Under the pieces are notes generated by a model. It did not search any database. It was not told the DNA's origin and saw only the letters and a program-made list of their open reading frames with translations. A DNA stretch of 38,092 nt. Origin: Myxococcales bacterium (GTDB lineage Bacteria > Myxococcota > Kuafuiibacteriia > Kuafuiibacteriales > Kuafuiibacteriaceae). Location of the stretch: NCBI GenBank assembly GCA_019634385.1, contig JAHQVK010000221.1, forward strand, positions 1 through 38,092. The letters are read 5' to 3'. Below are positions 12,163 to 17,322 of the stretch, in pieces (positions within the stretch are counted from its first letter, which is position 1; each line of letters begins with the position of its first letter). The translations under genes and the position numbers were made by a program.

Positions 12163-12272
12163 TCGAGCTCTGCGTTTCCCAGGTAGGCGAAGTTCTAAAT
12201 AGCAACTCTTTATGGCTTCGAGCGAACAAAAGTGCAAAAAGGACCCTTAACATCGTTTTGTCGTGTCCAACT

Positions 12273-13871
12273 ATGAGTATGGTGTCGTCAGAAGAATCAG
12301 GCTCAAAAAGCACCCAAGAGAGTAGCCTGCTTGCCGCCTTGGAACGGATTGGTTTTCTGGAATGGCGACTGGAACAACTGGGGGCTGAGCTTACCACCGA
12401 AAGGGCCAAGCTACATGAGCATCGTTCAGAACTTGCTCGATCTTCTCGTCGGGAGGCAGAAACCGCAGAGACCATTCGGGACCTGCGGATGCAGCTCGCG
12501 CAAACGCAAGAGGAATGCACCCTGCTCAGTCGAAGGTACCTCGAAGCCGAAGCAACCCGTAACAAGCTTGAACAGAATGGGGGGCAGGCCTCCATAGCGC
12601 AATTAGCAACCGACTACGCTCGATTACTTGCCCGCGCCAAAGCGGCTGATCGTCAAGAGGAGGAGCTAGCTCATGCTAACGAACGAATCTCTCGACTACA
12701 GGCCCAGCTCAATCGCTTCTTCGAGCGATTGATTCAGTGGCAACATGCTACTGCCTCTGATGACCCAGACGCCATTGATCTCATAGAACTTATTTCCGAC
12801 TTACGCGGAGAGACTCTCCGTTTAGAGGCCGCCAATGCTGCACAGCGACGGCATGCAAATGCATTGGCGGAGGCACTCGCCAACGCAGAAATCCAGCAAC
12901 CATCGGAGCTCAATCCATACGACGAAGACTCACTGAACACCCACGTCCGCGTGCTGGACTCCGAAAGTTCCCAACCGCCATTCCGGACATCGATACCTTC
13001 ATGTCATAACGAAGCAGCTGTCAAAGTGGCCAAAGAAAGATGGGAATCTGGAACCGCTAGCGAGGGAGCCTTAGCCTCTACTTACCCCCCTGAATCCCTC
13101 GCTCAAGAGAACGAGCAGGCGATGATGACTTCCGAGACAAATGAGGTACCCATTCGTCTCGCTGATGCGTTATTTGCGCTTAGCTGCTCTGATGTCGATC
13201 AAAAAGGCGCCAAAAAACTTCTTGAATCACTCATGAGTGAGCAACCAGTCGCCATTCGTGCAGAACTCCTTGAATTGCGTGGTATCACTGGCCGCCTTGC
13301 GCCAACGCTCTTAGGAGCGGTTGTGTTTGAAGCATCGACTTTCGAGGCTCGGTTGGCTGCAGTGCGTGCGCTTGCCGATATTGGAGGACCGGTAACGTCT
13401 CTAGTGCTCAACCACTGTCTAGATGCGCAAGATTGGCGGCTGCGAGCAGCAGGTGCCGAAGGTTTACTCAGTGCTCCTATTCTTCCGCTCCCAGACGCCC
13501 AGCGCGCGTTTCATCGAGCATTAGCGGATTGTGACCCAAAAGTTCGCCGTCGAGCGGCTGTAGCTGCCGCAGGCTCTTCCGCATGCACCGAGGAGATTCT
13601 CATGGTCTACCTCTTTGACAAAGATGCCCAAACTCGGAGGGCCTTAGCCGTGGCCGTGGGTGAGAGAGGTGGCATCAAAGGTCTTTTCGCCTTATCGCGA
13701 CTACTTCATGATCCTGACCTTCAGGTTAGACGAACGGCCGCACGCGCACTGGAGCGCCGCCTAAGTCTTCGGCTACCAAGCCATCTAGATAATTCGGAGA
13801 AAGATCGTAGGATCGCAGCTCGCGCGATTCGCGAACGACTTATCGAGCAGTATCAGTCATGCAGCAGGTAA
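12273..13871 (+). CDS. PomY-like coiled-coil and HEAT-repeat protein
   Basis: The 532-aa protein has no enzymatic motif. Residues about 16-215 are strongly heptad-like and charged, a coiled coil. Residues about 215-290 are a low-complexity linker. Residues about 292-525 are HEAT repeats, for example EARLAAVRALADIGG, WRLRAAGAEGLLSA, PKVRRRAAVAAAG and LQVRRTAARALERR. PomY of Myxococcus combines an N-terminal coiled coil with HEAT repeats and stimulates PomZ; this protein lacks a Pro-rich C-terminal tail. ATG 12273 (or 12279) was chosen; the frame opens to TTG 12258, and no convincing ribosome site is seen. It overlaps the ParA gene by 13 nt, implying coupled translation. It could instead be an unrelated HEAT scaffold, but the partners argue for the Pom assignment. 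Confidence 0.7.
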   Translation: MSMVSSEESGSKSTQESSLLAALERIGFLEWRLEQLGAELTTERAKLHEHRSELARSSRREAETAETIRDLRMQLAQTQEECTLLSRRYLEAEATRNKLEQNGGQASIAQLATDYARLLARAKAADRQEEELAHANERISRLQAQLNRFFERLIQWQHATASDDPDAIDLIELISDLRGETLRLEAANAAQRRHANALAEALANAEIQQPSELNPYDEDSLNTHVRVLDSESSQPPFRTSIPSCHNEAAVKVAKERWESGTASEGALASTYPPESLAQENEQAMMTSETNEVPIRLADALFALSCSDVDQKGAKKLLESLMSEQPVAIRAELLELRGITGRLAPTLLGAVVFEASTFEARLAAVRALADIGGPVTSLVLNHCLDAQDWRLRAAGAEGLLSAPILPLPDAQRAFHRALADCDPKVRRRAAVAAAGSSACTEEILMVYLFDKDAQTRRALAVAVGERGGIKGLFALSRLLHDPDLQVRRTAARALERRLSLRLPSHLDNSEKDRRIAARAIRERLIEQYQSCSR

Positions 13872-14809
13872 GCTATCCACGCCGGCGTTTTGCCGAACTC
13901 TTGAGTATGTCGGAGTCCGAACTCGACGCCACCGAGCAGGCCGCGTTGGATCAACTCGGAGAGGCTAAGGTCCGGTACAGTTCCGCTGACCTATCTCGAT
14001 ATCGCGAATTAACTCGTCGCTATCCTCCTCAAATTGCTCATCGGTTTCAGCTTTTTCTCAATTTCAAAGGTGGTACAGGAAAGACAAGTTTATCCGTATC
14101 CTATGCCCATCGGATTGCCGAAATGGGTCACCGAGTATTGATCGTTGATCTCGACTCTCAAGCTCATGCCACTAAGTGTTTGGGCTACGATGGTGAGGCA
14201 CTAGACGAAACTCTCTATGATGTGCTGGTGCACAAGCGCCCGATCCATGAAGTTAAGATAGAAACACCACTGACCCAGCTCCATCTTCTGCCATCGAGCT
14301 TACGCATGGCGACTATTGATCTTCAGCTCATGCCAATGTCCAGCCGAGAGTTGCGGCTAAAAAAAGCCCTTGCCGAAATAAACGGCGACTATGATCTGAT
14401 TGTAATGGATGCGCCGCCAGCATTCGGACTGATGAATCTGAACGCCATTGTTTCGGCACAAGACCTATTTGTACCTGTCCTTCCGGATTTTCTTTCTTTT
14501 CATGGCCTAAAACTACTTTTTGAAACCATTGACGACGTTGCTGAAGATTTGGATCATGAGCTGGACCGAATTTTTGTGGTGATCAACCAGTTTAATCCTA
14601 CTACAACAATAGCAAGGTCGGCACGCGAAGCTTTAGAGAGTCATTTTTCGGAGTATCTTTTGCCGTCAGTAATACGACAATGCACCAAGTTCGCGCAGGC
14701 CTCTAGTGAGGGTGTACCCATATTCTTGTTCGATCCTAGTAGCAAAGGTGCGCAAGATATTCAGCGAATTATCGACGCCACATTACTTCCAAGAGGAGGC
14801 GAGGGATAG
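13859..14809 (+). CDS. PomZ-like ParA/MinD-family ATPase
   Basis: The 316-aa P-loop ATPase has the deviant Walker A KGGTGKT (signature Lys70, Lys75), the switch region VDLDSQAHATKC with Asp99, and YDLIVMDAPPAFG as Walker B. The N-terminal roughly 60 residues are an extension before the fold (RRRFAELLSMSESELDATEQ), as in orphan ParAs that bind partner scaffolds. ParA/MinD proteins dimerise with ATP, bind the nucleoid or membrane, and are released when a partner stimulates hydrolysis. No ParB or parS-like partner is seen. Instead the gene lies between two coiled-coil proteins, which is the pomX/pomZ/pomY arrangement of myxobacteria. Overall length and motif spacing are close to PomZ. The start overlaps the upstream gene. 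Confidence 0.88.
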   Translation: MQQVSYPRRRFAELLSMSESELDATEQAALDQLGEAKVRYSSADLSRYRELTRRYPPQIAHRFQLFLNFKGGTGKTSLSVSYAHRIAEMGHRVLIVDLDSQAHATKCLGYDGEALDETLYDVLVHKRPIHEVKIETPLTQLHLLPSSLRMATIDLQLMPMSSRELRLKKALAEINGDYDLIVMDAPPAFGLMNLNAIVSAQDLFVPVLPDFLSFHGLKLLFETIDDVAEDLDHELDRIFVVINQFNPTTTIARSAREALESHFSEYLLPSVIRQCTKFAQASSEGVPIFLFDPSSKGAQDIQRIIDATLLPRGGEG

Positions 14810-14814
14810 GAGGC

Positions 14815-17322
14815 ATGAAATCGGGATTTGAGGGCGCATTACCCCGTCGCAAACCGCGAACTCGTTTGGGTTCGATGCTTGCTGATCTTCCGGTAGTACC
14901 CCAAGAGACTACTTCTGCAGAAGCTTCTGATGAACCTGATGATGCATCATCTTCGAATGAGCCTACTAAAAGCTCCTCTCGAAAGCGCTCGAGCCGCTCA
15001 GAAAAGAAGCGAAAAGGCTCATCTTCATCCCGGCGCTCAAACTCCATGCCGGCTGGTGATACTTCTGTCGATGTATCACCAGCCGCATCCGCAGCTATAG
15101 TTGAACCCGAATCTACTTTACCCTCTGTACCTCAAAATCCCTCATCCACCGACACAGCCAAACCCCAGCGAGGCTCCGCTTCTCCGAACGCCAAAATCAC
15201 AACCGAAGCAGAGACTCAAACAGACGAAGTAGAGACTCAGACAGAAGAAGTACAAGCGTCCCCACTCGAACCGTCCAGATCCTCGACGAAAGCTACCTCT
15301 CAAACCCAAGTTGCATCAGTAACCACACCACAAGCTGAAGCACCCAACTCGCCCGTCGAGAATTCGGGCAAGTCGCCCACCAAGACGGGCTCCACACCCC
15401 CGCTGACGAAACCAACACCAGACCAGACAACAACAAGCTTTGAGCAGCAGCAACTACTTGAGCAGCAGCAACTACTTGAGCAGCAACAACTACTTGAGCA
15501 GCAGCAACTACTTGAGCAGCAACAACTACTTGAGCAGCAGCAACTACTTGAGCAGCAACAGCCACCTGAGAACCCAGCACCCGCGTACGTACCAACGACC
15601 GCCAGCCCTGGGTTAGAAGAGACCCCGTCCGCTGGTGACGAACCGCAACCAGTCTTCGCTGCTGATCCTCGTCGTCCCCATGCCTCAACCTCGGAAAGCA
15701 CAACAACCCCTTTGGTGGACAACCCCGGGTCGGCTTCGAAGCCGACCACTTCTCAGCCAAACACGGTGAAATCTGCGGCGCAAAGAACCACCACCCATCC
15801 GTTGCCATCTCCGCTTCCGCAAAGCCCAGAACAAGCTAGCACAACTACCACTAGCGGTCGGCGACCACCGAGCCCCAGCAGCACATCATCACCTAGTCGG
15901 AACGGGTTTGTATCCTTAGATTCACCGGATCTATCTCATAGTATCTCGGTTAGCTCCCCCACACCGCCGGCCCAATCCCAAATAGACAATTCAACAAGTG
16001 GACACTCAGAAGTACCCTCCATTCGGCATCCAAAAGTAATCAGCGACTATGAATTCGTGAGCCATCTCCCAACCAAGGATAGCAACCCAACCCAAAACAC
16101 TTCTTTATCGTCCACAGTTGAACAGAATCAAAACCGCACATCCAACTCGGATGTAGGCTCCTCAGCAACTTCTCCGGAAGAAGTTTCGCTCTCGTACCTT
16201 TCCGAACATTCACGACGGCCGCATCTTAGACCCGTGGACACACTGGCAGACGTACAGACAGCGCCCACATCTCGCTTACGGGAGATCCGGAATAAGCTCC
16301 CAGAGGTCAACCCTCTACAATCACCGACAAATACTTCCAACATGTCGGAATTTAATAGTTCCGATCCCAGTTTGCTTCACCTCGAAACTTCCGAAGCACT
16401 GCTGGACTCGCTTTCCACACTGGAGGGCCGCATGGCGTCCGATCCTTCTACCTTTGTTGGTCCCCAGCCTCGGTTTACACAGTCAACTAAAGAAGAATCT
16501 CAGTATCCCGAAGAGCTAGAGCCAGACCAGCAAACATATATTGCCTCCTTACGAGCTGCGGTACGAGCCCGAACTCAGTCGCAGGAGGTTGACAAGTCTA
16601 CCGAATCATCCAGGGAAAACGATAGCTCACGGCCCAGAACCGTTCCGCCAGGCGGAGAGATAGTTAAGGCCGGTCGGGAACGCATCGATGCTCTCAGAGA
16701 GAGACTGGCTGAGGCCGCACGTCGAAGCCAAGTGCCTAGCGCTGAACCCCTCACGACCGCTTCACGTATCCGCGCGACAGTGGAATCTCTTCGAAGGGAG
16801 CTAGCAAGCACAAATACGGTACGGAAGTCATTACAAACAAAGGTTGATACCCAAGCGGACCAAATTTTACAGCTACAGAAGGAACTGGAAAACGAGCGCC
16901 GAGCTCGGGTTAGTGCAGAAGCACTCGCTGATGAACGAGAACGAGTAACCAAAGAGTTGCTGGACGAGTCCGAAGCCCTTGCCGAAGAACGAGATCTGGC
17001 TCTTTCTCGCATTGCAGAACTGCGATCGCTTGAGACCTCCCGTGAAGATATTTTGCATGAGCTGGAGCAAGCGCTTCATGACAAGGACGGTGCTCTAGAC
17101 GGCGCGAGAAGTCGCATTCTCGAGCTCCAAGACGCACTCGACGCCACCTCCACCGATATGACGGTCTTAGAGAGCAAGTTGACGGAAGCTCAAGAGACCA
17201 TGGAGCAGTCAACAAACAAGATACGAGCCCTCGAGAGCCAAGTGGAAGAAGCTAGAACTACCCGGGATGCTCTCCTGGAAATTGAACGTCTAGTAAGCAA
17301 CTCGAGTAGTTCCGCTCATTAG
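14815..17322 (+). CDS. PomX-like disordered plus coiled-coil scaffold
   Basis: The 835-aa protein starts 5 nt after the ATPase stop behind a perfect AGGAGG. Residues 1-22 are basic and contain K13, P14, R15 in KPRTRLG; M. xanthus PomX has an N-terminal PomZ-activating peptide in which Lys13 and Arg15 are essential (recalled knowledge). Residues about 30-610 are Ser/Thr/Pro/Gln-rich and probably disordered, with an EQQQLL tandem repeat at about 210-251. Residues about 615-830 form a long coiled coil (ERIDALRERLAEAARR, QLQKELENERRARVSAEA). It is about twice the size of M. xanthus PomX, the extra length being in the disordered part. It would be the polymerising scaffold of a division-site positioning complex. 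Confidence 0.72.
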   Translation: MKSGFEGALPRRKPRTRLGSMLADLPVVPQETTSAEASDEPDDASSSNEPTKSSSRKRSSRSEKKRKGSSSSRRSNSMPAGDTSVDVSPAASAAIVEPESTLPSVPQNPSSTDTAKPQRGSASPNAKITTEAETQTDEVETQTEEVQASPLEPSRSSTKATSQTQVASVTTPQAEAPNSPVENSGKSPTKTGSTPPLTKPTPDQTTTSFEQQQLLEQQQLLEQQQLLEQQQLLEQQQLLEQQQLLEQQQPPENPAPAYVPTTASPGLEETPSAGDEPQPVFAADPRRPHASTSESTTTPLVDNPGSASKPTTSQPNTVKSAAQRTTTHPLPSPLPQSPEQASTTTTSGRRPPSPSSTSSPSRNGFVSLDSPDLSHSISVSSPTPPAQSQIDNSTSGHSEVPSIRHPKVISDYEFVSHLPTKDSNPTQNTSLSSTVEQNQNRTSNSDVGSSATSPEEVSLSYLSEHSRRPHLRPVDTLADVQTAPTSRLREIRNKLPEVNPLQSPTNTSNMSEFNSSDPSLLHLETSEALLDSLSTLEGRMASDPSTFVGPQPRFTQSTKEESQYPEELEPDQQTYIASLRAAVRARTQSQEVDKSTESSRENDSSRPRTVPPGGEIVKAGRERIDALRERLAEAARRSQVPSAEPLTTASRIRATVESLRRELASTNTVRKSLQTKVDTQADQILQLQKELENERRARVSAEALADERERVTKELLDESEALAEERDLALSRIAELRSLETSREDILHELEQALHDKDGALDGARSRILELQDALDATSTDMTVLESKLTEAQETMEQSTNKIRALESQVEEARTTRDALLEIERLVSNSSSSAH
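15442..15567 (+). repeat. 18-bp in-frame tandem repeat (EQQQLL) in the PomX-like gene
   Basis: Six 18-bp units GAG CAG CAR CAA CTA CTT run from 15442 to 15549, followed by a seventh, degenerate unit (GAG CAG CAA CAG CCA CCT). Units 3 and 5 use CAA where units 1, 2, 4 and 6 use CAG in the third codon, so units 3-4 and 5-6 look like a 36-bp duplication. Gain or loss of units keeps the frame. The encoded Gln/Leu stretch would be helical within a disordered region. Confidence 0.95.

Follow-up and report, generated by a model that had tools for sequence, protein, structure and literature searches.

Orthologs of pomY, pomZ and pomX in a Myxococcota genome, with a PomY that ends before the mapped activator region

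The pomYZX operon and its three products

We analyzed a 38,092-bp contig of a Myxococcales bacterium (JAHQVK010000221.1; hereafter the window) and found three consecutive genes that, on comparison of their sequences, are near certainly orthologs of pomY, pomZ and pomX of Myxococcus xanthus, in which the encoded proteins position the division ring at mid-cell. With a probability of roughly three in four, we read them as an operon for a PomXYZ system that determines the division site in a lineage branching deep within Myxococcota; its PomY would have lost the ATPase-activating C-terminus, leaving PomX as the sole activator. The source genome (G000) is a draft metagenome assembly of 5.39 Mb in 257 contigs and is 93% complete. 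Its family is represented by four genomes in the comparison set while all the other listed genomes are related to it at the phylum level only, indicating that the lineage branches deep. The PomXYZ of the window is real, correctly named and widespread in its phylum, and it is a natural variant that bears on recent claims made for M. xanthus.

The first-pass annotation, which was made from the letters of the DNA, had described three overlapping or abutting genes with the architecture of PomY, PomZ and PomX and the ATPase gene in the middle, and our analysis of the open reading frames (ORFs), domains and gene order bore this out. All three ORFs lie on the + strand. The pomY ortholog (12273..13871; 532 aa, with an alternative TTG start at 12258) encodes a coiled coil, a linker and HEAT repeats, and overlaps by 13 nt the pomZ ortholog (13859..14809; 316 aa), a ParA/MinD ATPase assigned by its identity to PomZ and its clade. 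The pomX ortholog (14815..17322; 835 aa), assigned by an N-terminal peptide profile and a C-terminal PomX hidden Markov model (HMM), follows after a gap of 5 nt, so the three genes look like one operon. The order pomY-pomZ-pomX is that of Myxococcus and was kept at every locus with complete flanks.

The ATPase is of the ParA type (Pfam AAA_31, E 6.6e-45) and is 54% identical to M. xanthus PomZ (AM003, L114). Its identity to true PomZs ranged from 53 to 67%, whereas the other ParAs in G000 reached ~33% at comparable length, and PomZs in these genomes were at most ~35% identical to other ParAs over their length. In a maximum-likelihood tree all the PomZs, including those of the window and M. xanthus, formed one clade with a support of 100/99, the nearest to the window PomZ being those of G016, from its own family, and of a contig of SZUA-336. 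The outgroup consisted of ten other ParA proteins, the chemotaxis and carboxysome ParAs PpfA (ParC) and McdA not among them, and its branches were long; the identity gap and the synteny agree with the tree despite these branches. No chemotaxis or carboxysome gene was present among the window proteins scanned. All 21 PomZ contact residues published for M. xanthus (PMC13170346) sit on the stated letters in record L114, and the residue numbering is therefore secure. By this numbering the window PomZ keeps G62, K66, D90 and K268 (Walker A residues, catalytic Asp and DNA-binding Lys), and its deviant Walker A motif KGGTGKT was located at 14066..14086 (+; residues 70-76) by translation and alignment. 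The N-terminal extension pointed out in the first-pass annotation is present (64 residues, 13859-14050) but is not distinctive, since PomZ proteins normally carry one, that of M. xanthus included. By reading only, the extension (SYPRRRFAELLSMSESEL...YSSADLSRYR), common to the PomZ family, resembles a helix-turn-helix of the MerR/excisionase type.

PomX begins with the putative 22-residue activator peptide MKSGFEGALPRRKPRTRLGSML (14815..14880, +), identified by its profile score. Compared with the M. xanthus start MKKAFEQNVSRAKPRLRLGALT, K2, F5, K13 and R15 are the same, and K13 and R15 are the two residues essential for PomZ activation (PMC7993993). Only one of 64,479 other start-site peptides equalled the score of the window peptide, and that one was a displaced real PomX. 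A Myxococcaceae-only profile of full-length PomX missed the window protein, after which homology was assessed on its two conserved ends separately. At the other end, an HMM built without the window lineage matched the C-terminal coiled coil (16735..17319, +; ~residues 641-835 by alignment and HMM), the scaffold domain in M. xanthus, with 66.4 bits and an E value of 3.7e-20, while the next ORF had an E value of 0.11; the native coiled coil scored 71 bits against 29 for the best of 100 heptad shuffles. As the first-pass annotation had stated, the protein is much longer than the known PomX, and no other among 128 reaches its 835 aa (median 369). Its middle is a disordered, low-complexity region rich in S/T/P/Q, in which the Tandem Repeats Finder (TRF) detected 6.6 in-frame copies of an 18-bp repeat coding for (EQQQLL)n (15440..15557, +); the length of this repeat is likely variable between strains.

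A PomY HMM built from Myxococcaceae only had a single match in the window, the ORF at 12273-13871 (E 2.2e-7), and hhalign of the window-clade PomY with the Myxococcaceae PomY gave 99.7% and an E value of 3.7e-27 over 406 columns that included the N-terminal coiled coil. This coiled coil (12303..12884, +; residues 11-204 by AlphaFold2 and signature score) starts with the PomY signature SLLAALERIGFLEWRLEQL, which was beaten by just two of 6616 other ORFs, both true PomYs. The HEAT repeats (13191..13790, +; residues 307-506 by AlphaFold2 and Pfam) matched HEAT_2 with an E value of 1.5e-10, and the fold matches in the PDB were alpha-Rep/HEAT proteins. The AlphaFold2 model consisted of long helices (11-204), a disordered stretch (211-305), the HEAT repeats (307-506) and a final basic helix (509-531), followed by the stop. 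The first-pass annotation had named an ATPase phylogeny and a profile comparison of both partners as checks on its PomXYZ call, and both upheld the call: against the ten other ParAs the ATPase fell into the clade of M. xanthus PomZ, and each partner matched PomY or PomX profiles from which the window lineage had been left out.

The missing PomY C-terminus and a proposed activation of PomZ by PomX alone

The window PomY aligns up to approximately residue 450 of the 697-aa M. xanthus PomY (L114) and then ends; in L114, alpha5 lies at 599 and gD starts at ~639. Absent, therefore, are the disordered tail, alpha5 and the winged-helix gD domain, which belong to the two-activator PomXYZ of M. xanthus. 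The first-pass annotation was right that the Pro-rich tail is missing but understated the difference, since missing with it is all of the region, gD included, to which activation was mapped. In M. xanthus the activating activity of PomY was mapped to 496-682, and deletion of either 496-623 or 624-682 abolishes it (PMC13170346). A gD profile, which gave E<=1e-9 in gD-bearing PomYs and found the domain in PomYs of most families, detected none in the PomY of the window, G016 or SZUA-336; the domain was likewise undetected in 5 of the 11 family f8 genomes and in all eight Gemmatimonadota PomYs whose upstream sequence was available. Relocation of gD to another place in G000 was ruled out by a whole-genome search, whose best E value was 0.31 as against <=2.3e-18 in six gD-bearing genomes. 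An assembly error or gene decay is a very improbable cause of the short PomY. The source is indeed a draft metagenome assembly; but the pomY stop overlaps the pomZ start and leaves no room for more, gD occurs nowhere else in the genome, and the PomYs of the independent genomes G016 and SZUA-336, at 28-39% identity, also lack gD and still have an intact coiled coil and HEAT region.

Mapping the presence of gD on the PomZ tree required four state changes, with a safe minimum of three given the weak support in f8. The count alone cannot separate loss from gain, and we favor repeated loss as the likeliest history because gD occurs in most branches. The gD-less PomYs of f8 (L040, L043, L048, L076 and L078) end in sequences such as RDPVRAALRRLVLEGGSR, which resemble the first gD helix followed by a stop; their gD may have been eroded later than that of the window clade. 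In both f16 genomes (G162 and G161; loci L037 and L038) the PomY upstream of pomZ consists of HEAT and gD without the N-terminal coiled coil, and none was found in the gene or its flank, the rest of these genomes not having been searched. The window PomY is thus the natural counterpart of the M. xanthus construct PomY CC-HEAT (coiled coil and HEAT), and the f16 PomY that of PomY HEAT-IDR (HEAT and intrinsically disordered region), neither of which rescues an M. xanthus pomY deletion (PMC10307791).

Since the peptide and coil of PomX, the motifs of PomZ and the coil and HEAT repeats of PomY are all intact, the system is most simply understood as a cluster that PomZ moves and that has no activator besides PomX. 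In such a system PomX would assemble by its coiled coil into a single scaffold. The coiled coil and HEAT repeats of PomY would let it coat this scaffold and condense there, and PomY would recruit FtsZ. PomZ-ATP dimers on DNA would tether the PomX/PomY cluster to the nucleoid, and their hydrolysis would be triggered by the PomX peptide alone, PomY no longer being a second activator. The resulting flux of PomZ would pull the cluster to the middle of the nucleoid, and the Z-ring would form there.

Several observations weigh against this reading. Although PomY CC-HEAT of M. xanthus still makes round PomX-dependent condensates, it fails to restore normal division (PMC10307791), as does M. xanthus PomY lacking 496-682 (PMC13170346), which implies that the short PomY of the window must be compensated somehow. 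Furthermore, the window PomZ keeps seven of the eight residues of the proposed alpha5 pocket (A147 is changed to Gln), and E219, in the pocket for the PomX peptide, is Ala in both the window and G016. Candidate compensators are the longer PomY coil, the final basic helix, the very long PomX linker and the A147Q and E219A changes of PomZ.

It is also conceivable, if unlikely, that a different part of PomY, for instance the basic helix that follows the HEAT repeats, keeps it acting as a second activator. This terminal helix, EKDRRIAARAIRERLIEQ (509-531), aligns with SERRRQVAALRERIARR of SZUA-336 and with a basic stretch in M. xanthus PomY, and the conserved alpha5 pocket would fit a PomY ligand. 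The equivalent M. xanthus stretch, however, falls outside the mapped activator region 496-682 (PMC13170346), and a search for a retained alpha5-like peptide in the window PomY gave no 9-mer above the shuffled background (p 0.86). The M. xanthus alpha5 nonamer was confined to Myxococcus, Corallococcus, Pyxidicoccus, Citreicoccus and close kin; L060 has a variant of it and L070 a weaker one, and in the remaining PomYs the best match was no better than in shuffled sequence. The pocket residues of PomZ are nonetheless kept family-wide, including in lineages without alpha5 and gD, so that conservation of the pocket does not track alpha5 and another ligand may occupy it.

Descent from PomXYZ with a present role in positioning other cargo, or without a division role, is still less probable. 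Re-use of ParA-type systems is common, and two other genera of the window's family lack PomZ, which suggests that PomZ is not indispensable in this family; in these genomes, G015 (92% complete) and G017 (97% complete), neither PomZ nor MinC was found. Against this possibility, G000 encodes FtsZ (FtsZ_C, E 3.1e-32) and has no MinC (PF03775; the control was detected in 6 of 14 reference genomes), while pomY, pomZ and pomX are kept together phylum-wide with no linked cargo gene.

Distribution of PomXYZ and the Gemmatimonadota copies

The literature treats PomXYZ as a system of myxobacteria, and its reports of PomX and PomY come from Cystobacterineae (PMC7993993, PMC13170346). The window ATPase as query had matches in 140 of 195 Myxococcota genomes at E<=1e-40, a few of them weaker ParA matches near 1e-41, and PomXYZ is thus ordinary in Myxococcota. 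A 2024 study stated that Gemmatimonadota genomes seem to lack PomZ and reported no known division-placement system there (PMC11271474). We found pomZ in 8 of 395 genomes of the phylum of G195, a metagenome-assembled genome (MAG) named Gemmatimonadetes, and in 4 of 121 genomes of its family, the assignment to Gemmatimonadota resting on MAG record titles. The pomYZX loci L103, L106, L133, L144, L154, L165 and L186-L189 formed one PomZ clade (100/98) beside the f2 PomZ L041, and an example of their PomX peptide is MKSGFDANVPVRKPRTAIG (L186). Contamination of G195 by Myxococcota DNA was rejected because ScpA, encoded ~5 kb from pomYZX on the same contig, was 57-63% identical to that of family mates as compared to 37-44% for Myxococcota, indicating that the operon sits in a Gemmatimonadota chromosome. 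The flanks of G209 were also assessed, with a gene of patchy distribution, and the rejection covers G195.

Some record labels disagreed with the loci they carried. L154, a member of the Gemmatimonadota PomZ clade, is labelled Gammaproteobacteria, and L164 and L168 are Anaeromyxobacter-type PomXYZ loci on contigs labelled Fibrobacter and Chitinispirillaceae, through either transfer or mis-binning. On the pomYZX contig of SZUA-336 (L097/L191, QJZC01000007) the flanking acyl-CoA ligase best matches the window's genome and family, and PomZ is missing from the remaining genomes sampled in the class to which it is assigned. SZUA-336 is probably a mis-binned contig or a misplaced genome, and because of the ligase match we did not count it as a further phylum.

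Taken more broadly, these distributions raise a tentative picture, to which we give somewhat less than even odds, of a modular PomXYZ. Here gD and the activator role of PomY would have been lost at least three times, leaving PomX as sole activator, and PomY would do no more than form condensates and recruit FtsZ; the alpha5 pocket would serve another, universal partner, and the gD-less form would have reached part of Gemmatimonadota. If true, that phylum, believed until now to be without one, would have a division-placement system, and its operons are a concrete candidate where the 2024 survey reported none. PomXYZ is distinctive among ParA/MinD positioning systems in having two activators, and work in M. 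xanthus holds both of these and all three PomY domains to be necessary. Natural PomYs without the mapped activator region, or without the coiled coil, make that claim testable, and with the truncated proteins the parts played in activation, condensation and FtsZ recruitment can be told apart.

Neighboring genes and comparison with known systems

Genes for squalene synthase and squalene-hopene cyclase lie upstream of pomYZX in the window, and the other neighbor is a DUF6600 gene. The first-pass annotation had placed the operon next to hopanoid genes; this holds for the window but is not conserved, as no other member of a set of 146 ingroup locus stretches, which partly overlap one another, has squalene-hopene cyclase adjoining pomYZX. 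We therefore dropped a link with hopanoids, and these neighbors are incidental.

The window operon shares with M. xanthus PomXYZ the gene order, the ATPase motifs of PomZ, the PomX peptide (with K13 and R15) and coiled coil, and the coiled coil and HEAT repeats of PomY. It differs in lacking the IDR, alpha5 and gD of PomY, whose helical coiled-coil region extends to residue 204 rather than 106, and in a PomX that is twice as long and rich in S/T/P/Q instead of Ala/Pro. The Gemmatimonadota systems (L103, L133, L186 and others) are alike in gene order, PomX peptide and a gD-less PomY, whereas their PomX is only ~320 aa and their PomZ is sister to the f2 copy L041 and not to the window clade. Like ParABS and MinCDE, the window system pairs a ParA/MinD ATPase with a protein that drives it and carries its activator peptide, a basic one, at the N-terminus. 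Unlike them, it has no MinC and, as the first-pass annotation had noted, no ParB (or parS) adjoining the operon, whose neighboring genes are those named above, and its PomZ belongs to a separate clade.

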